From positions 194,088 to 258,087 of the forward strand of contig NZ_WTUX01000022.1 in assembly GCF_009882975.1 (NCBI RefSeq): a DNA stretch of 64,000 bases, given 5' to 3'. The notes under the pieces were generated by a model, which saw nothing but the letters and a program-made list of their open reading frames with translations, was not told the DNA's origin and did no database searches. The DNA is from Maritimibacter harenae (GTDB lineage Bacteria > Pseudomonadota > Alphaproteobacteria > Rhodobacterales > Rhodobacteraceae). The position numbers and the translations under genes were made by a program. Shown in pieces: positions 7,970 through 40,361 of the stretch; the first letter of the stretch is position 1; every line of letters begins with the position of its first letter.

Positions 7970-8815
7970 ATGTCTGGACAGGCGAATGGGCCGGTCATCA
8001 TCAAGAAGGTGAAAAAGAGCGGTGGCGAGGGGCATCACGGCGGCGCGTGGAAGGTCGCGTACGCGGATTTCGTAACCGCCATGATGGCCTTCTTCATGCT
8101 CATGTGGCTCCTGAACGCGACGACCGAGAAACAGCGCAAGGGCATCGCGGACTACTTCAGCCCGACGATCCCGGTGAACCGCGTCTCCGGCGGGGGGCCG
8201 GATGCCTTCGGGGGCGATAGCGTCTTTTCCGAAGAAAACCTGGCCCAGACCGGCCAGGGCGGCCTGCCCAGCGACGCCAACAGCGCCTCGTCCGAAGCGC
8301 CGGACGGCGGACAGGGAGACGCACGGGAACTCGACCGCGCGGCCGAGGCGCGCGCACTCGAAGAGATCGAGGCGGTTCTGACCGGCAAGGCCGGCGAGAG
8401 CATGGTGTCCGACCTGCTCCAACGTCACATCGTCACGGAACTGACCGACGAAGGGCTGGTGATCGAGCTTTTCGACCTGGTCGACGAACCGCTGTTCGTC
8501 CCCGGCACGGCGGAACCCACCCCCCTCATGGCAGAGCTCATCGGCGTCATGGCCCGCACCTTCGCGCTCGTGCGCAACGGCGTCGCGATCGAGGGGCACA
8601 CCCGGGCCGAACCGGTCGTCCTTGCCCACAACACGGTCTGGGAGATGTCGACCGCCCGCGCCGACGCGATTCGCCTTCTGCTGCGTGACGAAGGGCTGTC
8701 CCCGAAGCGCGTCCGCCGCCTGACGGGATTTGCCGACCGCGAACCGGCCGCGCGCAACCCGATGGCCCTGCGCAACAACAGGATCGAGCTCATCCTTCTG
8801 CGCACGCACCGCTGA
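7970..8815 (+). CDS. motB: Flagellar motor protein MotB
   Basis: The protein has 281 residues. A short basic cytoplasmic N-terminus and a single membrane helix (about 30-50) contain the proton-binding Asp at 33 in 'AYADFVTAMMAFFMLMWLLN'. A plug region, an acidic linker and a C-terminal OmpA-like peptidoglycan-binding domain (about 160-281, 'IEGHTRAEP...RADAIRLLLRDEGL...NNRIELILL') follow. It anchors the stator to peptidoglycan; motA is not in the window. GGAGGAG precedes the ATG. It reads towards flgE, 92 nt downstream. Confidence 0.95.
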   Translation: MSGQANGPVIIKKVKKSGGEGHHGGAWKVAYADFVTAMMAFFMLMWLLNATTEKQRKGIADYFSPTIPVNRVSGGGPDAFGGDSVFSEENLAQTGQGGLPSDANSASSEAPDGGQGDARELDRAAEARALEEIEAVLTGKAGESMVSDLLQRHIVTELTDEGLVIELFDLVDEPLFVPGTAEPTPLMAELIGVMARTFALVRNGVAIEGHTRAEPVVLAHNTVWEMSTARADAIRLLLRDEGLSPKRVRRLTGFADREPAARNPMALRNNRIELILLRTHR

Positions 8816-8839
8816 GGAAAAAGCGGCGCATTTTACCTG

Positions 8840-8854
8840 TTAAGGCGCCCTTAA
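8840..8854 (+). promoter_or_regulatory. CtrA-type box upstream of flgE
   Basis: A perfect TTAA-N7-TTAA (TTAAGGCGCCCTTAA) lies 53 nt before the flgE start. This is the consensus bound by the response regulator CtrA in alphaproteobacteria, which controls flagellar genes in Rhodobacterales. Binding here is inferred from sequence only. Confidence 0.6.
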
Positions 8855-8907
8855 GCCCCGGGCCCTATGGGTGGATGCGACGAGGGGATGCAGCAGAAAG
8901 GCGCACC

Positions 8908-10488
8908 ATGACAATCTCATCTTCGCTCAGCGCCGGCGTGGCCGGGCTGAATGCCAACGCGACGCGGCTTGCCACGATTTCCGACAACATCGCGAACTCG
9001 GGGACCTACGGGTACAAGCGGGCGACCGCGGATTTCGAAAGCCTGGTCATCGGCGGCGTGGCCGGGGCCGGTACCTATTCCGCGGGCGGCGTGCGCGCAA
9101 CGACCCAGCGCCTGATCGACGAGAACGGGCCGCTGATCTCGACGTCGAACCCGCTCGACATCGCCATTTCCGGGCGCGGCATGCTGCCGGTGATGCAGGA
9201 GGCCTACATCAACTACACCGGGGAAGATCAGCCGATGCTGACCACAACGACGGGGTCTTTCCGCACCGACGAGGAAGGCGTCCTCAAGACCGAGACGGGG
9301 CTCGTCCTCCTGGGCTGGCCGGCGGATGCCGACGGCAACGTCGCGACCTACCCGCGCGATACTGTCACGGCGCTCGAACCGGTCGTGGTCCAGGTCAATC
9401 AGCAGGCGGGCGACCCGACGACGCGCATGAACCTTGGCGTGAACCTTCCCGCGACGAATTCCGAATACGGCGCCACCGGCGAAACGCTGCCGCTTTCGAT
9501 CGAGTATTTCGGCAACCTCGGCACCTCGGAATCGCTCGACGTGGAGTTCACGCCGACGGTGCCCACGACACTCGGCGACCCGCCCTCGAACACGTGGACG
9601 ATGACCATCAAGGACAGCGCATCGAACGGGGCCGTGATCGGCGAATACGAACTGGTGTTCGACGACAGCCGCGCCACCGGCGGCACGCTCTCCAGCGTGA
9701 CCACCACCTCCGGCGGCGCCTACGACCCGACCACCGGCACCATCGACCTGACAGTCTCGGGCGGGCCGCTGCAACTGACGATCGGCTCGATCGGTGATCC
9801 CAATGGCCTCACACAGCTGTCCGACAGCTTCGCCCCGGTGTCGATCACCAAGGACGGCTCGCCCGTGGGCAACCTCACCTCGGTCGAAATAGACGCGAAC
9901 GGGTACATCACTGCGACCTACGACACCGGTTTCACGCGCACGATCTACCAGGTGCCGCTCGTGGACGTGCCCAACCCGAACGGCCTGATCTCGCATTCCA
10001 ACCAGACCTACCAGGTCTCGCCGCAGTCGGGTTCATTCTTCCTGTGGGACGCGGGCGACGGGCCCACCGGTGAGGTGATCGGCTTCACTCGCGAAGGCTC
10101 GACCACCGATGTCGCGGGCGCGCTCACCGACCTGATCCAGACCCAACGCGCTTATTCCTCGAACGCGAAGGTCATTCAGACCGTCGAGTTGTCCTTGGCC
10201 GTGGCCACCGTCTTGCCGGTGGAGATTTCGGACTGCGTCTGTTCGAGGTTGGAATTGATGGATTTCAGCGTCTGGAGCGCGACCATCGCGCTCGAATTCG
10301 TCAGAATGCTGGACATTTTTTCGTTCCTTGGATCATACGGCGCCGTTTTCCGCGCCGGGTTGGAAATCAGCCCCTTTGGGGCCGGGTCCGACGTCATTCT
10401 GACTGTTGCGGCCATCCGGTTCCTGGCGGTATCCGGTCCGCGCCACCCGTTCGGGATGCGAGCGGAAATCTGCGTCCGAGGTGCTTAA
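8908..10488 (+). pseudogene. flgE: Flagellar hook protein FlgE, 3' end replaced by inverted fliC sequence
   Basis: Residues 1-426 are a normal FlgE. The N-terminal helix reads 'SAGVAGLNANATRLATISDNIANS', domains D1/D2 occupy the middle, and the C-terminal motif is 'DLIQTQRAYSSNAKVIQTV'. The last dozen or so residues expected for the family (ending like MLQETTNLKR) are missing. From about 10185 the frame instead reads 100 unrelated residues that are the antisense of the fliC start and its upstream region, up to a TAA inside a CtrA box. The protein would be 526 residues with a lost C-terminal D0 helix end, so it is probably non-functional. A genuine deletion or inversion, or an assembly join, could explain it. 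The start at 8908 matches family N-termini. Confidence 0.85.
10176..10316 (-). pseudogene. fliC: Flagellin FliC, N-terminal 44 codons only
   Basis: The minus strand from 10316 encodes 44 residues of a flagellin N-terminus ('MSSILTNSSAMVALQTLKSI' then '...TQSEISTGKTVATAKDNS'), preceded by AAGGAACG as ribosome site. Two foreign codons and a stop follow where the sequence switches into flgE. The rest of the flagellin is absent. It lies downstream of the flgN-like gene in the same direction and 180 nt after a CtrA-type box, so its native promoter appears to be intact. Confidence 0.88.
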
Positions 10489-10499
10489 CAGGTCGTTAA
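10485..10499 (-). promoter_or_regulatory. CtrA-type box upstream of fliC
   Basis: A perfect TTAA-N7-TTAA (TTAACAGGTCGTTAA) lies about 170 nt upstream of the fliC start, in the gap between the flgN-like gene and fliC. It is the right place and consensus for CtrA control of flagellin. The spurious flgE extension ends in its left half-site. Confidence 0.6.
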
Positions 10500-10548
10500 A
10501 AAGCCCGCGCCAAATGCCGTGCATTTTAAATGTCTGCCCTCCATATGC

Positions 10549-10902
10549 TCAGGCGCGCTTGTTGAAGTCAGCGGCCCGGGCGCACAGCCCAGCGCGATTG
10601 CCGTCGCTGGAATAGGTCGCCAAATCATCGGTACCGCGTGCGAGCCCCGCAATCCTGGCCTGCGCCGCCTTGAGGCCCTGCGCCGCGGCGGCCAGCAAGG
10701 CCCCGTTGCGCTCCGCCTTCTCCTTCAGCCGGTCGAGTTCGCCCTGCTCGACCCGTCCCTGTGCGAGGCGCGCGATCAGCCGCTCCTTTTCAGGGGCGAG
10801 CCGGACGACCGCGTCGATGTCCCCTTGAAGGATGTGCCTCCGTTCGCGCGCGAGGATTTCTTCAAGCGCCCGGGGGCCGCGAAATCGGTCAAGAACGCCC
10901 AT
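10549..10902 (-). CDS. FlgN-like flagellar export chaperone (putative)
   Basis: This 117-residue protein is predicted to be almost all alpha-helical with coiled-coil character ('ALEEILARERRHILQGDIDAV', 'LAPEKERLIARL'), the usual look of FlgN chaperones, which guard hook-associated proteins before export. Sequence conservation in FlgN is low, so the call rests on composition, length and position between the rod-binding gene and fliC. Its start overlaps the end of the rod-binding gene by 14 nt, indicating an operon. Confidence 0.65.
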   Translation of the reverse strand: MGVLDRFRGPRALEEILARERRHILQGDIDAVVRLAPEKERLIARLAQGRVEQGELDRLKEKAERNGALLAAAAQGLKAAQARIAGLARGTDDLATYSSDGNRAGLCARAADFNKRA

Positions 10903-11179
10903 CGGTCCGCTCCTTCATCGCATTGAAGAGGGATTCGGACAGTCCGATCCCGCCCGCGGACACCATCGCCCGCGCCTGCTCCAGCCGCAGGAACGACGCG
11001 AACTGCGCCTCTCCCGCGCCGCCGCCGAACCCCTCCGGCTGCGCGCCGAGCCCGGCGGATTTCAGCATTTCCGCCAGGAACGTCGCCTCAAGCTCCCGCG
11101 CCGCCGCACGAAGTTGGTCGTCTGCGCCCGACGTGGCTGGAGGGGGCACCGTCGGCGATGCGGGTGGAAGTGTCAGCAT
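10889..11179 (-). CDS. Rod-binding protein (FlgJ N-terminal domain type)
   Basis: This 96-residue protein carries the rod-binding domain seen at the N-terminus of FlgJ and in stand-alone alphaproteobacterial CheL-type proteins. The pattern is 'AARELEATFLAEMLKSAG', a glycine-rich turn, then 'FASFLRLEQARAMVSAGGIGLSESLFNAM'. It has no muramidase domain, as is normal for this group. It would help rod assembly in the periplasm. It is divergent from fliK and starts an operon with the flgN-like gene and fliC. The start at 11179 is the best supported; an upstream in-frame ATG near 11267 is possible. Confidence 0.85.
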   Translation of the reverse strand: MLTLPPASPTVPPPATSGADDQLRAAARELEATFLAEMLKSAGLGAQPEGFGGGAGEAQFASFLRLEQARAMVSAGGIGLSESLFNAMKERTDGRS

Positions 11180-11295
11180 GTCGAGATTCGTCCAATCGTT
11201 CGGAATTTTCTCGACCCTGCCGGCAAGCGGTAAAGATTCGGTAATTTCTATCGAGGATGGTGCTGTCATTCGGTGACATGACAACCGGGGACAAT

Positions 11296-13044
11296 ATGGA
11301 CGTCGCATTGCTGGCCTTCGCGGCTGGAAAAAAGGATGAAACGGCACCGCCCACGCGTGGCGAGCCGGCCGATAGCGAAGCCTTCGCTGCCGCGTTCGAA
11401 GGGTCGGCGGGCGCGGAAGCCGTGGTGGGCGAGGTGCCTGCGAAGGCGCCCGCCGTGGCCGCGCAACAAGTTGCATCCGATGCCAGGTCGGAGGTGCGGC
11501 CAGGTGCGCCGCGAATCGACGTTTCCGTCTTGGCAGCGCACACATCGGTAGGGGAAACAGTCCGCTCAGCCACGCCTGATGCGCAGCAGACCCCGGACGC
11601 AGGGGTGCCGGCGCCGCCACGAAGCGCGACCGGGGCCAAGACGCGATGGGTTGAAGACATCGCGGCCGGGACAATCGCGACTGCGCCGCGCGGGGCGACC
11701 TCGAACGCCAGCGCGCGCCCGGTCGAGGTGGTGAAGGTGCAGTCCGGCAAGGCCCGCACACCGCTTGCCGCGGCCCGGCCACACCCCATTCCCGTGAACG
11801 CCGATCGCGCGAGCCCCCGGGAAGACGCCCCGATAAGGACCGAAGGGCCCTTGGCGCAGACAGCAGGCAGGAAGATCGTGCAGCCACGTCCGATGATGTC
11901 GAGCCCAGCCAATGCAGACAGGGCCGACCTTCCGGACTCGGCGACTGCTTCGGTGAAAGCCGATGCGCCGGCGCTCGAACGCGAGGCACGAAGCCCGACG
12001 CCACCTGTGGTCGTGCGGCCCGCCAATGCCGCACCGATACGGGTATCGGGACAACCGGAGGCAGCGGCCCAGCGCTCCATCGAAAGCCCGCGACCGATGT
12101 TGCTCGAAGGGGCGCACCGTGAGGCGGCGCCCGCCGCCAAGCCCGCGCACGAGCGGGCGAACGCGCGGGATGCCGCGCTTCTGCGCGTGACGCCCGCGGT
12201 CGATCCGGCGGGCCAAGGCCCGCGGCAAATGGAAAGCGCGGGCGCGCGGCCGGCCGTACCTGCGGAGACACGCGCCGCGGCATTTGCCGCTCCGTCGCCG
12301 GACGGGACGGGTTCGGGTGTGGCGAAGGGGGCTCAGGTCCGAGTCGATCCTTCCGGGCCGTTGCCTGATGCCAGATCCCAGCCGTCCGGACAGAATGCGG
12401 ACAGGCCCACGAGCGAGTCCTCTGGAACAGTCGTGACCTCCGCACCAGGGCACCCTCCCAAGAACGGAGAGCCCAAGTTTATCCATGCCACGGCGACCGC
12501 AACATCGGTCGTAGCGATACCGGTGGACGGCCCGATACCCGATAGCCCGTTCGACCCGCTCATCGCGGACCCGGGATCGACCGACCCGGCGCGCACTTTG
12601 CGCCACGCCGGCCCCGCCCCCGATCCCGCAGCGCTCACCCGGGCCGATACGGGCCGCCACGTCGCCGTGCAGGTGGCCGAGAGCATCCGCGCGGGTGGCG
12701 ACGGGCGGGTCGAGGTGACGCTGCGACCGGAAGAGCTTGGGCGTGTCAGCCTGTCGTTTCACGGCGACGGCGGGGCGATGACCGTGTCGCTTTCGGCCGA
12801 CAGGGCCGACACGCTCGACCTCCTTCGCCGCAACATCGCGGTGCTCGAGCAGGAGTTGCGCGACCTGGGCTACGACTCGCTAGATTTCGCCTTCGGCGAC
12901 GGCGGCGCGCGGGACGATCAGCCGGATACCCGCAAAGCACCCATCGGGCCTGACGAGATCGCCACCATCGACGACGCGACCCCCGACTCGCCGCAGACCC
13001 CGCGCGCCACCCGCCCCGGCGGCGGGATGGATCTGCGGCTTTGA
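11296..13044 (+). CDS. fliK: Flagellar hook-length control protein FliK
   Basis: The protein has about 582 residues. The first 440 or so are a low-complexity Ala/Pro/Arg-rich region, as expected for the molecular-ruler part. The C-terminal 120 residues hold the conserved Flg_hook domain ('VTLRPEELGRVSLSFHGDGG...VSLSADRADTLDLLRRNIAVLEQELRDLGY'). FliK sets hook length and switches export specificity. ATG 11296 follows GGGGAC; an earlier ATG at 11257 would overlap the region upstream of the divergent rod-binding gene. flgD follows after 18 nt. Confidence 0.92.
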   Translation: MDVALLAFAAGKKDETAPPTRGEPADSEAFAAAFEGSAGAEAVVGEVPAKAPAVAAQQVASDARSEVRPGAPRIDVSVLAAHTSVGETVRSATPDAQQTPDAGVPAPPRSATGAKTRWVEDIAAGTIATAPRGATSNASARPVEVVKVQSGKARTPLAAARPHPIPVNADRASPREDAPIRTEGPLAQTAGRKIVQPRPMMSSPANADRADLPDSATASVKADAPALEREARSPTPPVVVRPANAAPIRVSGQPEAAAQRSIESPRPMLLEGAHREAAPAAKPAHERANARDAALLRVTPAVDPAGQGPRQMESAGARPAVPAETRAAAFAAPSPDGTGSGVAKGAQVRVDPSGPLPDARSQPSGQNADRPTSESSGTVVTSAPGHPPKNGEPKFIHATATATSVVAIPVDGPIPDSPFDPLIADPGSTDPARTLRHAGPAPDPAALTRADTGRHVAVQVAESIRAGGDGRVEVTLRPEELGRVSLSFHGDGGAMTVSLSADRADTLDLLRRNIAVLEQELRDLGYDSLDFAFGDGGARDDQPDTRKAPIGPDEIATIDDATPDSPQTPRATRPGGGMDLRL

Positions 13045-13062
13045 CATCGGAAAGGACCTGAC

Positions 13063-13746
13063 ATGGACGTGACGCAAACCGGCTCCACCACCGCTTTCGG
13101 TGCTTCCGCGGCGCCCACCGACGCGGTCAAACGCGTCGGCGACGCGACCGAGATCTCCTCGGATTTCGAGACCTTTCTGAAAATGTTGACCGCGCAGATG
13201 GAAAACCAGGATCCGCTCAATCCGATGGAAAGCACGGATTACGCCACCCAACTCGCCACCTTCTCGGGCGTCGAACAGCAGGTGCTGACGAACGACCTGA
13301 TCAAGTCCCTGCAGACCCAGCTTGGCGTCATGTCGATGACCGACCTCGCCGGATGGGTGGGGATGGAGGCGCGCGCGGCGGTGCCGGTGCAGTTCGGGCT
13401 CGAACCGATCACGGTCACGCCGGACCCCGCCGATGGCGCGACGTCGACCTACATGGTGGTGCGCAACGCCAACGACGTGGAGGTCGACCGGGTCAAGATC
13501 CCGCCGACCGAGGCACCGGTGCGCTGGGCCGGGATGGACCCTTACGGCAACCTGTTCCCGCCCGGGGAATACGCGTTCCACCTTCAGAGCTTCGCCAACG
13601 GGGAGCTTCTGTCGGAGACTCCGATGGCGGTCTACTCCGAGGTGGTCGAGGCCAAGGTGGTGGATGGCGAGACGATGCTGGTCTTCGCCTCGGGGGACGA
13701 GATCGCGGCTTCCGACGTCTCGTCCCTGCGCGCGCCCCGGGAATAG
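13063..13746 (+). CDS. flgD: Flagellar hook capping protein FlgD
   Basis: The protein has 227 residues. The N-terminal signature is 'DFETFLKMLTAQMENQDPLNPMESTDYATQLATFSGVEQQ' in essence (about residues 33-73), typical of FlgD. An Ig/tudor-like domain follows, with 'GMDPYGNLFPPGEYAF'. It caps the growing hook. It directly follows fliK with an AAAGGA ribosome site, so both are in one operon. It is intact, in contrast to flgE. Confidence 0.95.
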   Translation: MDVTQTGSTTAFGASAAPTDAVKRVGDATEISSDFETFLKMLTAQMENQDPLNPMESTDYATQLATFSGVEQQVLTNDLIKSLQTQLGVMSMTDLAGWVGMEARAAVPVQFGLEPITVTPDPADGATSTYMVVRNANDVEVDRVKIPPTEAPVRWAGMDPYGNLFPPGEYAFHLQSFANGELLSETPMAVYSEVVEAKVVDGETMLVFASGDEIAASDVSSLRAPRE

Positions 13747-13802
13747 GGCTTTCACATCCGCCGCGCGCGGGCTAATCCGGCCCCGACCAGACGGAGGGGC
13801 CG

Positions 13803-14681
13803 ATGTTCACCACCACGCTGATTTCCGCACCGGGCAAGGCCGTGCTCGACCCGGCGCTCGTCACCGCGCTGATGACCGCCTGGGGCGGGGCCGAGGCGCG
13901 CTGGCTCGCCCCCGACGAGGCCGCGGAATTCGACATGCCTGAGGTGCCCGACAGCCGGTGGACGAGCTGGGAAGAGCTCCAGGGCCTCGGCGTCGACCTG
14001 GTCGTTCAGCCCAGCGCGGGCCGCCGCAAGAAGATGCTGCTCGCCGACATGGACAGCACGATGATCTGCCAGGAATGCATCGACGAGCTTGCCGACGAGG
14101 CGGGCATCGGACCCCGCGTGGCCGAGATCACGGCGCGCGCAATGAACGGCGAGCTCGATTTCGAGGGCGCCCTGCGCGAACGCGTCGGGCTGCTCGAAGG
14201 GCTCGAGGCCGCCGTGATCGAGAAGGTGCTGGCCGAGCGCATCACCTACATGTCCGGCGGGCGCGAACTGGTGGCCACGATGCGCGCCGCCGGGGCCTAT
14301 GCCGCGCTCGTCTCGGGCGGGTTCACCGCCTTCACCGCCAAGGTCGCCGCCGAGCTCGGTTTCGACGAAAACCGGGCCAACACGCTCGACATCGTCGCGG
14401 GCCGCCTGACCGGCCAGGTCGTCGAACCGATCCTGGGCCGGGCCGCGAAGGTGGCCGCGCTGGAAGAGATCACCGCCCGCCTGGGCATCGCGCACGAAGA
14501 TGTCATCGCGGTCGGCGACGGGGCCAACGACCTGGGCATGCTCGCACTCGCCGGGGCGGGGGTTGCGCTTCACGCCAAGCCCTCGGTCGCCGCGCAATGC
14601 GACATCCGCATCAATCACGGCGACCTCACCGCGCTCCTCTATGTGCAGGGCTACGCCCGCGACGAGTTCGCCCGAGTGTGA
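13803..14681 (+). CDS. serB: Phosphoserine phosphatase SerB
   Basis: This 292-residue HAD-superfamily enzyme has the nucleophile motif 'LLADMDSTMICQE' (Asp82, Asp84), motif II in 'ALVSGGFTAFT' and motif III 'VGDGANDLGML'. A short N-terminal ACT-like extension precedes the catalytic domain, as in E. coli SerB. It releases serine from phosphoserine, the last step of serine synthesis. GGAGGGG precedes the ATG. serA and serC are not in the window. Confidence 0.96.
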   Translation: MFTTTLISAPGKAVLDPALVTALMTAWGGAEARWLAPDEAAEFDMPEVPDSRWTSWEELQGLGVDLVVQPSAGRRKKMLLADMDSTMICQECIDELADEAGIGPRVAEITARAMNGELDFEGALRERVGLLEGLEAAVIEKVLAERITYMSGGRELVATMRAAGAYAALVSGGFTAFTAKVAAELGFDENRANTLDIVAGRLTGQVVEPILGRAAKVAALEEITARLGIAHEDVIAVGDGANDLGMLALAGAGVALHAKPSVAAQCDIRINHGDLTALLYVQGYARDEFARV

Positions 14682-14905
14682 TCCGCCGCTGCCCTGATTC
14701 GCCGGACGCCGCCCGGCCGTCCCGGTCACAAGCGCGCCATCCGACGGTCACCGCGCGGTTTTCCGCCAACGGGTCTTTCAAAAACCGGCAAAAAACCGTT
14801 ATGGTGGCGCCACGAGGTTGAACTGGGACCCCGCGCCGTGGAACACCGCCGAGACGGATGGAGCAAGGGGCCCGAGAGGCAGAGCAGCTGGAGGCTGTGT
14901 TAGAC

Positions 14906-15430
14906 ATGACATCACGCATCGCACGGGGTCTGTGCATCGCCGCGCTGTCGCTGGCAGCGACCGGCGCATTTGCGCAGGAAAGCACGAACAGGGTCGCGGC
15001 CAACACCGATTGGAGCGTCTTCGTCGAGGGCGATCCGCAAGAATGCTGGAGCGTCTCGAAACCCAAGGAAACGGTGAACACGAAGGACGGACGCGTCGTG
15101 TCGGTCCGCCGTGGCGACATCCTGCTCTTCGTCTCCTACCGCTCGGACGCCGACACCGGCGAGGTGAGCTTCACCGGCGGCTATCCGTTCGCGGACGATT
15201 CCACCGTGACGCTCACGATCGGCGGCGACGAGTACGAGCTGTTCACGGACGGCGAATGGGCCTGGTCGGCCAGCCCGGAAGACGACGCGCGCATCATCGC
15301 GTCGATGAAGCGCGGGGCCGAGGCGGTCGCCGTGGCCATGTCGTCGCGCGGCACCCGGACCGAGGACACGTTCTCGCTCATGGGGTTCACCGCCGCGGTG
15401 GAGGATGCCGGGACCCGCTGCACGGAGTGA
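14906..15430 (+). CDS. Invasion-associated locus B (IalB) family periplasmic protein
   Basis: This 174-residue protein starts with a clear Sec signal peptide ('MTSRIARGLCIAALSLAATG', cleavage near 'AFAQE'). The mature part has the IalB pattern: 'WSVFVEGDPQECWSVSKPKE', 'YPFADDSTVTLTIGG' and a terminal Cys ('GTRCTE') likely to pair with the early one. IalB proteins are periplasmic or surface-exposed; outside Bartonella their role is not established. ATG 14906 is chosen for the signal peptide and the GGAGG 11 nt upstream. A terminator follows. Confidence 0.88.
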   Translation: MTSRIARGLCIAALSLAATGAFAQESTNRVAANTDWSVFVEGDPQECWSVSKPKETVNTKDGRVVSVRRGDILLFVSYRSDADTGEVSFTGGYPFADDSTVTLTIGGDEYELFTDGEWAWSASPEDDARIIASMKRGAEAVAVAMSSRGTRTEDTFSLMGFTAAVEDAGTRCTE

Positions 15431-15454
15431 GCCGGCCCACATCGCAAGCACACG

Positions 15455-15486
15455 CGCCCCGGCACTGCTCCGGGGCGTTTTCTTTT
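15455..15486 (+). terminator. Rho-independent terminator after ialB
   Basis: An 8-bp stem CGCCCCGG / CCGGGGCG with a 7-nt loop is followed by TTTTCTTTT. It separates the IalB gene from rlmN. Confidence 0.92.
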
Positions 15487-15538
15487 GAAATCGGCGCATG
15501 ATCCCCTATATGGGGCCCATTCCACAGGAGCGCGACTC

Positions 15539-16723
15539 ATGACGGCCTCGTCCCCGATCACCCAGGATGTTCTGACCATCCCCCGCAAGGAGGATGCGAG
15601 CCTCGGCAAGCTGAACCTTGTCGGGATGACGCGCGATCAACTGCGCGATGCGCTGATCGCCGCCGGCACGCCGGAGAAACAGGCGAAGATGCGCGTGGGC
15701 CAGGTCTGGCAGTGGATCTACCAGAAGGGCGTGCGCGATTTCGCCGACATGACCAACCTGTCGAAGGACTACCGCGCGCTGCTCGACCAGCATTTCGAGA
15801 TCCGCGTGCCCGAGGTGGTGTCGCGCCAGATCTCCGAGGACGGGACGCGCAAGTACCTGGTCCGCATCGCGGGCGGGCACGAGGTTGAAATCGTTTACAT
15901 CCCCGAAGAGGACCGCGGCACCCTTTGCGTGTCGAGCCAGGTGGGCTGCACGCTGACCTGTTCGTTCTGCCACACCGGCACGCAGAAGCTGGTGCGCAAC
16001 CTCACGGCCGGTGAGATCGTGGGACAGATCATGGTGGCGCGCGACGACCTGGGCGAATGGCCCGAACCGGGCCGGCACCCGAAGAACGAAACCCGCCTGT
16101 TGTCCAACATCGTGCTCATGGGCATGGGCGAGCCGCTCTACAACTTCGACGCCGTGCGCGACGCGATGAAGATCGCGATGGACGGCGAGGGGATCAGCCT
16201 CAGCCGCCGGCGCATCACGCTGTCGACCTCCGGCGTCGTGCCGGAAATCGCCCGCGCCGGGGCCGAGATCGGCTGCATGCTCGCCATCAGCTTCCACGCG
16301 ACGACCGACGAGGTGCGCGACAAGCTGGTGCCGATCAATCGCAAGTGGAACATCGAAGAGCTCTTGGCGGCGCTCAAGGAATACCCGAAACTGTCGAACT
16401 CCGAGCGGATCACCTTCGAATACGTCATGCTCGACGGCGTGAACGACTCGGACGAGGACGCCTACCGGCTGATCAAGCTGATCGAGGGCATCCCGGCCAA
16501 GATCAACCTGATCCCGTTCAACGAATGGCCCGGCGCGCCCTACAAGCGGTCGTCGAACAACCGCATCCGGCGGTTCGCGGACATCATCTACAAGGCCGGC
16601 TATGCCTCGCCGATCCGGACCCCGCGGGGCGAGGACATCATGGCCGCCTGCGGCCAGCTCAAGTCCGAGACCGAGCGTGCGCGGAAGTCCAAGGCCGAGA
16701 TCGCGCGCGAAGCGGGGCTTTGA
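15539..16723 (+). CDS. rlmN: Dual-specificity RNA methyltransferase RlmN
   Basis: This 394-residue radical-SAM enzyme has CxxxCxxC at C137-C141-C144 ('[11 protein letters not shown]') for the 4Fe-4S cluster. '[15 protein letters not shown]' follows, and a late Cys in 'MAACGQL' is expected to be the methyl-carrying/resolving residue. It makes C2-methyladenosine at A2503 of 23S rRNA and A37 of some tRNAs. The start at 15539 has AGGAG eight bases upstream. It sits between a terminator and a 49-nt gap to the deacetylase-family gene. Confidence 0.96.
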
Positions 16724-30130: not shown

Positions 30131-30173
30131 GCGGCCCCTTGCGGGCGGACGCGCCCGTGCATAGTCTCTGGAG

Positions 30174-30266
30174 CACCTCGGGGTGCCCGCGCCGTCCGGC
30201 GCGTGGCTGAGATGCACTTGCGAACCCGTTGAACCTGAACCGGCTAGAACCGGCGGAGGGAAGGTC
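30174..30266 (+). promoter_or_regulatory. TPP (THI-box) riboswitch
   Basis: The conserved elements occur in order: ACCT at the 5' end pairing with AGGT at the 3' end (P1), CTCGGGGTGCC, GGCTGAGATGC, ACCCGTTGAACCTGA and the CCGGCGGAGGGA block. Small departures exist in the loop between CCGGCT and ACCGGCG. It lies 53 nt upstream of the thiB start, and thiamine diphosphate binding is expected to shut off the thiBPQ operon. Confidence 0.95.
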
Positions 30267-30277
30267 AGGACCGTTTG

Positions 30278-30318
30278 GTCATCCTGCCGGACTTTCGCCC
30301 GTGGCAATGGAGGATGAC
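30278..30318 (+). promoter_or_regulatory. Putative ribosome-site sequestering stem of the TPP riboswitch
   Basis: GTCATCCT at 30278-30285 is exactly complementary to AGGATGAC at 30311-30318. The latter overlaps the thiB Shine-Dalgarno (GGAGG, 30309-30313) and runs up to the ATG. The 8-bp stem would hide the ribosome site, pointing to translational control. Confidence 0.65.
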
Positions 30319-40285: not shown

Positions 40286-40361
40286 GGGCCGTTAGCTCAG
40301 TTGGTAGAGCAACTGACTTTTAATCAGTGGGTCGCAGGTTCGAATCCTGCACGGCTCACCA
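40286..40361 (+). tRNA. tRNA-Lys (anticodon UUU)
   Basis: The cloverleaf folds fully. The 7-bp acceptor is GGGCCGT/ACGGCTC with one G-U. There is a D-arm, an anticodon stem ACTGA/TCAGT with loop CTTTTAA (TTT at 40319-40321), a T-arm with GGTTCGAATCC, discriminator A and an encoded CCA. It reads AAA and AAG. Confidence 0.98.

Follow-up and report, generated by a model that had tools for sequence, protein, structure and literature searches.

In the window (the whole stretch of 64,000 nucleotides of Maritimibacter harenae DNA that was analysed), the hook protein gene flgE and the flagellin gene fliC face each other and both end abruptly at a single point, which raises the question of whether a real loss lies between them and, if so, how it came about. 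The flgE frame starts with an ATG at 8908 and is open through AKVIQTV (V codon at 10183-10185), beyond which it runs into antisense flagellin: from 10185-10188 onward the sequence reads as fliC codons 44 to 1 in reverse complement, with codon 44 at 10185-10187 and the start codon on the complement of 10314-10316. The switch from flgE to antisense fliC is confined to 10184-10188, and the letters and the Pfam matches agree (Table 1). The description given earlier by a sequence-only reading (a FlgE that is normal to AKVIQTV and then gives way to flagellin codons 44 to 1 in antisense, with TCGA at 10184-10187) was borne out to the letter, and the flgE-fliC junction is confirmed as real. The fused FlgE frame stays open to 10488, encoding 537 aa from an upstream ATG at 8875 or 526 aa from that at 8908, and flgE' is without its final ~12 codons (DEMLQETTNIKR in relatives). 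Elsewhere in the window, a TPP riboswitch (30169-30278) and a tRNA (40286-40358) were the sole Rfam matches at gathering score.

Table 1. Features around the junction in the window; deletants are genomes that bear the flgE-fliC joint.
Feature	Position	Strand	Description
motB	7970..8815	+	Complete ORF left of the deletion; MotB_plug 1.6e-20, OmpA 4.2e-7; adjoins flgE' in 16/16 deletants
flgE'	8908..10184	+	Hook protein gene, severed two bases into the V codon of IQTV; on the + frame, Flg_bb_rod 2.7e-6 and Flg_bbr_C 3.1e-9
Deletion junction	10184..10188	.	10184 T from flgE, 10188 G from fliC, 10185-10187 common to both
fliC'	10185..10316	-	Flagellin codons 1-44; Flagellin_N 1.3e-6 on the 42-aa minus-strand piece; read through the junction, stop at codon 47
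FlgN-like ORF	10549..10902	-	Remnant right of the deletion; PF05130 7.7e-6, a weak match (26.8 bits against a family cut-off of 30.5); matched in 6/16 deletants
flgJ-like ORF	10889..11233	-	Rod-binding, start not fixed; PF10135 6e-6; present in 16/16 deletants
fliK	11257..13044	+	Hook-length control; PF02120 2.9e-13; matched in 15/16 deletants, the exception being L155
flgD	13063..13746	+	Hook capping; PF03963 1.3e-19, PF13860 6.5e-8; present in 16/16 deletants

Loss of the flagellar block in this strain

An intact genus mate of the window (G001) aligns to positions 7979-10187 (80.7%) left of the junction, and to positions 10177-11288 (69.1%) and 12552-16000 (77.6%) right of it. In G001 the two flanks sit 26.4 kb apart, with the same order and orientation on both sides. 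The block between them holds flgK, fliP, fliF, motA, flhB, flgH, flgG, flgF and flhA, a flagellin-domain protein in the place of flgL, a rod protein in the place of flgB, and genes that we take, by position, to be flgI, fliI, flaF and flbT; all ten ORFs of the block that were scanned with Pfam are flagellar. Upstream of fliC, identity between the window and G001 is only 67.6% (386 aligned nt).

The window genome is a draft of 70 contigs, 99.47% complete, and no second Flagellin_N or Flg_bbr_C, even at E≤10, and no FlhA was found in these contigs. The search that had been proposed for the FlgE C-terminal tail and the remaining flagellin thus has a negative outcome in the assembly, and a second copy of the block elsewhere in the genome was rejected on these grounds. 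One clean deletion in the ancestry of this strain took away the flagellar block, beginning at flgE codon 426 and ending at fliC codon 44; the 26.4 kb missing relative to G001 include flgK, flgL and others, as had been supposed from the two truncated genes. The other suggestion made then, that the junction is one end of an inversion, was rejected because both flanks are colinear with G001 and retain its order and orientation. The strain should be non-motile, since its genome is without any other flagellin, Flg_bbr_C or FlhA. Two near-complete genus mates (G002 and G003) lack any match to FlgE or FlhA, and flagella have therefore been lost in more than one way within the genus.

The same joint across the family

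Beyond the deletion in the window, the main finding is that deletion at the same place recurs in separate lineages. With a 75-residue peptide spanning the joint as query, matches of 73-75 residues came from at least 13 of the 394 family genomes (one per genus, except for one genus with two); in the other genomes among the matches listed, the FlgE-end and antisense-flagellin matches were separate. Three further joint loci, those of M. dapengensis (L034), a metagenome bin (L059) and Gemmobacter straminiformis (L068), were found among the best 80 of 538 FlgE loci. In all 16 deletants the junction register is identical to within 2-3 nt, the two halves are joined directly without any insert, and the order motB, flgE', fliC', flgJ, flgD is kept, with fliK matched in 15. 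FlhA is absent in 12 of them; the remaining four (G135, G138, G420 and G425, the last being the genome of L068) carry it elsewhere with scores of 775-816 bits, versus ~700-745 bits in most genomes, and this FlhA probably represents a second flagellar type. The remnant FlgE' of these four genomes could meet a foreign export gate.

Within the genus of the window, the joint is found in the window genome and in M. dapengensis, and a normal FlgE end in G001, G004 and G007; of the two genomes from the genus of G171, one bears the joint, and in the other the FlgE-end and flagellin matches are separate. Relatives sharing the extended FlgE, which the sequence-only reading would have held against a deletion, do exist, but as what appear to be separate deletions at the same place.

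Two single-gene FlgE trees, both made by a quick search method and with long branches for L154, L158 and L159, bear on the number of events. On the larger (140 rows, comprising 64 of 120 earlier rows and 76 new ones, with L265, L305, L307 and L261 left out for having no usable FlgE), 15 changes are required to place the joint label on its 16 rows, no fewer than 12 of them forced by supported (starred) branches, and the label is clustered no more than shuffled labels (238 of 500 shuffles as low). On the smaller, which has fewer intact neighbours, 13 changes are needed, at least 10 are forced, and the label is mildly clustered (25 of 500 shuffles as low). For the window, the closest row in both flgE and fliC' is the intact G001 (87% over 126 nt in fliC', among 48 other rows), and M. 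dapengensis is nearest to intact genus mates in both. The locus of G. straminiformis is nearest to the intact L087/G426 on both sides, at 98% in the last 108 nt of flgE and 95% in fliC' (91.7% when the last 408 nt of flgE are taken, and 95.3% of 129 nt in fliC'); it is colinear with this sister apart from a 24.7-kb gap, with identities of 69.3% over 387 nt upstream of fliC and 74-84% over longer pieces further on. From these comparisons, the same block appears to have been lost in about a dozen relatives by separate events.

The joint was also set against other flagellar losses. FlhA was unmatched (E≤0.001) in 85 of the 394 family genomes, with G186 counted as FlhA-bearing although its match falls short of the family cut-off. 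Neither a FlgE end nor flagellin is matched in 59 of the 85, among the matches listed, and flgE is still found in 24 (sets compared by hand between lists). In 10 of these 24 genomes flgE is cut at the joint and in 14 it runs past (12 followed to the last residue, and G364 and G406 on a separate match only); no flgE endpoint elsewhere was found among the 24. The endpoints of other flagellar remnants differ from genome to genome. A different flagellar deletion in G248 (L197) leads from flgI residues 1-62 straight into flgD from residue 50, and G288 has lost the end of flgI. L195 (G379) and L196 (G101), from two FlhA-less genomes, have in common an old rearrangement in which flgI is separated from a piece of fliP (residues 188-244) by other genes, a run of ORFs that resembles, as named from sight, a MoxR/BatA-type operon.

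The FlgE' frame is open in 15 of the 16 deletants and its conserved columns are like those of intact genomes of similar distance, again in 15 of 16; the flgE' of L159 is decayed. The dN/dS between the window and L104 is 0.069, comparable to that of intact same-genus pairs (0.080-0.089), with higher values for L155 (0.254), L154 (0.281), L157 (0.168) and L160 (0.135). Because FlgE' is open and conserved with low dN/dS, the deletion events look recent, and most of the deleted lineages would be young. Selection for a new job of FlgE' was considered and set aside, as conservation and low dN/dS are equally expected of young deletions. The FlgE-fliC fusion was likewise rejected as the selected product, since its tail is not conserved and several frames stop soon after the junction.

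Exchange point and competing mechanisms

The best stand-in for the state before deletion is G426, the intact sister of G. straminiformis, in which the flgE site reads CCAGACGGTGGAC and the antisense fliC site CCAGACGGCGGCA, the deletion product being CCAGACGGTGGCA. The pair used in the L068 lineage, as seen in G426, consists of 8 identical bp, one mismatch and 2 identical bp. The exchange interval in L068 is two bases, between the T/C and A/C differences, and only there is the crossover interval bounded on both sides; in L163 the letters right of the joint have drifted and the exact point is less sure. At the mismatch, intact flgE has T (103 of 103 in one set and 76 of 77 in another) and intact antisense fliC has C (in an Ala codon in 31 of 32). 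Every product keeps the T of flgE, which places the exchange to the right of it in 16 of 16. At both sites, third codon positions are as variable as elsewhere, so that, judging from the sequences, there is no DNA-level site under selection.

We lean towards the view that the one clean deletion in the window, recurring in the family in the same register, was made by a site-directed break-and-join. Enzyme-directed cutting is suggested because third positions are ignored, one pair among hundreds is preferred and the exchange takes place over ~2 bases. A putative enzyme would bring the two places together by recognizing conserved coding letters (VIQTVDEM in flgE and NSAVWA in antisense fliC) that share CCAGAC-N-G-Y-N-G with third codon positions free, would cut both sites just after Y, and would fuse the left flgE half with the right fliC half across a 2-nt overlap, without insert. 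Two-base overhangs are left by serine recombinases and GIY-YIG endonucleases. The cell would then build no hook, rod, export gate or filament from these genes, motB, flgE', fliC', flgJ, fliK and flgD would be the residue left behind, and the loss of motility would presumably be favoured or tolerated. As in conservative site-specific excision, the same joint is found in independent events; the sites are not conserved as DNA, their third positions being free. A more specific proposal, tentative and in our judgement rather doubtful, is that the archetypal flagellar cluster is removed time and again, via the flgE-antisense fliC joint, by an undescribed site-directed exchange that reads coding letters as a guided recombinase or homing-type endonuclease would; this exchange would be a built-in or parasite-borne permanent motility off-switch. 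No enzyme that could carry out the exchange emerged from the ten scanned ORFs of the G001 block. A search for the junction on plasmids matched 9 records, in none of which a single place covered more than 80% of the query; there was no match in phages, and neither the junction nor the reciprocal pattern was found in viral contigs.

The main rival to site-directed exchange, possible but appreciably less probable than the break-and-join that we favour, is a repeat-driven hot spot: an ordinary short-repeat deletion (slipped or microhomology-mediated) at CCAGAC-N-G-Y-N-G with motility loss selected, this being the only direct repeat between the block ends that is conserved family-wide, with both copies coding-fixed. 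Such a deletion agrees with the 8 identical bp, one mismatch and 2-3 identical bp at the joint, with the position of the joint inside the matched stretch in every deletant, and with the presence of a coding-fixed copy in every lineage where other repeats are private. Some role of pairing is likely, since the site pair shares 8 to 11 letters. However, the motB-flgI and fliC-flgD blocks of G426 are linked by 947 direct repeats of at least 8 bp, 294 of at least 9 bp and 34 of at least 11 bp, and by 1072 eleven-base windows with at least 10 identities; between flgE and the fliC end alone there are 27 repeats of at least 8 bp, and 286 of at least 11 bp would remove flhA. In G001, where there are 24 repeats of at least 11 bp between the blocks, the unbroken match of the site pair is limited to CCAGAC, and the letters of flgE weaken the match in some deletants (CAA in L034, L159 and L163). 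As all 16 products keep the T of flgE, none used the 8-bp part as exchange point.

A possible microhomology within TCGA had been pointed out by the sequence-only reading, and the exchange does fall at the letters named; as a cause it is weakened by the 947 repeats in G426 and by other lineages having made the same exchange with other letters. A short direct repeat with one copy left is seen with the intact sister of L068 and more weakly in the others, but the endpoints do not differ with repeat availability (1 of 947 pairs is used in every truncated flgE seen) and the exchange does not fall just anywhere in the common stretch. Chance microhomology as the cause appears to fit badly.

A programmed and reversible excision, in which the block leaves as a circle and can return and the deletants are in the 'off' state, would also give a precise and recurrent joint, and would suit a FlgE' that is open in nearly all deletants with conserved columns no more worn than in intact FlgE, as though the gene were still of use or had been cut only recently; we nevertheless regard it as quite improbable. 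The exact pattern of the reciprocal joint was found in only 1 of the 394 family genomes (G312, where the position agrees with the end of flgK) and in no viral contigs, a search that circles lost before sequencing would escape. Moreover, FlhA is gone from 12 of the 16 deletants and that of the other four is unlike in score and elsewhere, the sites are not conserved, and flgE' in L159 has decayed. The pattern in G312 (L228; C40:266564-266584) lies ~1.4 kb downstream of flgE and runs from the antisense-fliC site into the flgE end; flgK ends at this place in other genomes, and the same letters occur there a third time in the cluster.

The chance is slighter still that a single deletion spread between genera as a junction-bearing fragment (for example in gene transfer agents) and entered by homologous recombination. 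The joint and its T are identical in 16 of 16, their distribution is scattered and the label is mildly clustered on the smaller tree, all as such spread would have it; yet beside the joint the deletants are each other's nearest row in 0 of 16 for the last 108 nt of flgE (1.2 expected) and in 5 of 16 for the 126 nt to the right (5.0 expected), and L068 resembles its intact sister on both sides. Because the deletants are not mutually nearest beside the joint beyond chance, a travelling fragment is disfavoured; on the right side, a single event might be common to L159 and L164 (0.76 between them). That old deletants regained the cluster is likewise disfavoured, the fla1 tree being described as mirroring the species tree (PMC12363192). 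An assembly artefact or a chance joint of unrelated contigs, the main alternative named by the sequence-only reading and one that a draft in 70 contigs might invite, has a negligible chance and is in practice excluded, because 16 separately assembled genomes (three of them, G172, G299 and G399, listed with one contig) share the identical junction, and the block is absent from the assembly rather than misplaced.

Meaning and comparison with known systems

These marine bacteria often lose motility, which is usually ascribed to scattered ordinary deletions. If about one genus in thirty across a broad sample (at least 13 of 394) bears the same cut separately, one defined process would drive much of the partial flagellar loss, and gene loss would be less random than assumed. 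The loss could then be measured by a simple PCR across flgE-fliC and, if an enzyme is responsible, its action would be a new site-directed activity on conserved coding sequence. In the open-access literature, neither an account of the recurrent flgE-fliC joint nor a motility report for the named deletants was found.

The nif elements of Anabaena and the skin element of Bacillus are chromosomal elements excised by dedicated recombinases, and like the block described here they are removed cleanly, as tens of kilobases, at a fixed joint. Their excision restores a gene, whereas here both flgE and fliC are broken; they also carry a recombinase and conserved sites, whereas the sites here show no DNA-level conservation and the ten scanned ORFs of the block are all flagellar. 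Illegitimate recombination at short direct repeats leaves few common letters at the joint and no insert, as is the case here, but unlike chance repeats the present pair is one of hundreds that are equal or better and is yet used in every truncated flgE seen. IS-mediated deletions are similarly recurrent with one fixed end; unlike them, no insertion sequence, scar or other insert is found at the joint in any of the 16 deletants.

The closest comparison is with the losses of fla1 described for Rhodobacterales, where 51 of 306 genomes are without any flagellar cluster and the absence of fla1 is attributed to independent losses, as the fla1 tree mirrors the species tree (PMC12363192, mSystems 2025). 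These losses concern the same order and apparently the same archetypal cluster as here: from its gene order and the description in that study we infer that the deleted block is fla1-like, FlhA, FliF, FlgH and FlgI being gone in the window genome. The words 'remnant', 'truncated' and 'excision' are absent from the main text of the study, and its account of the fla1 losses does not go into breakpoints, whereas in the genomes described here part of the losses share one joint.
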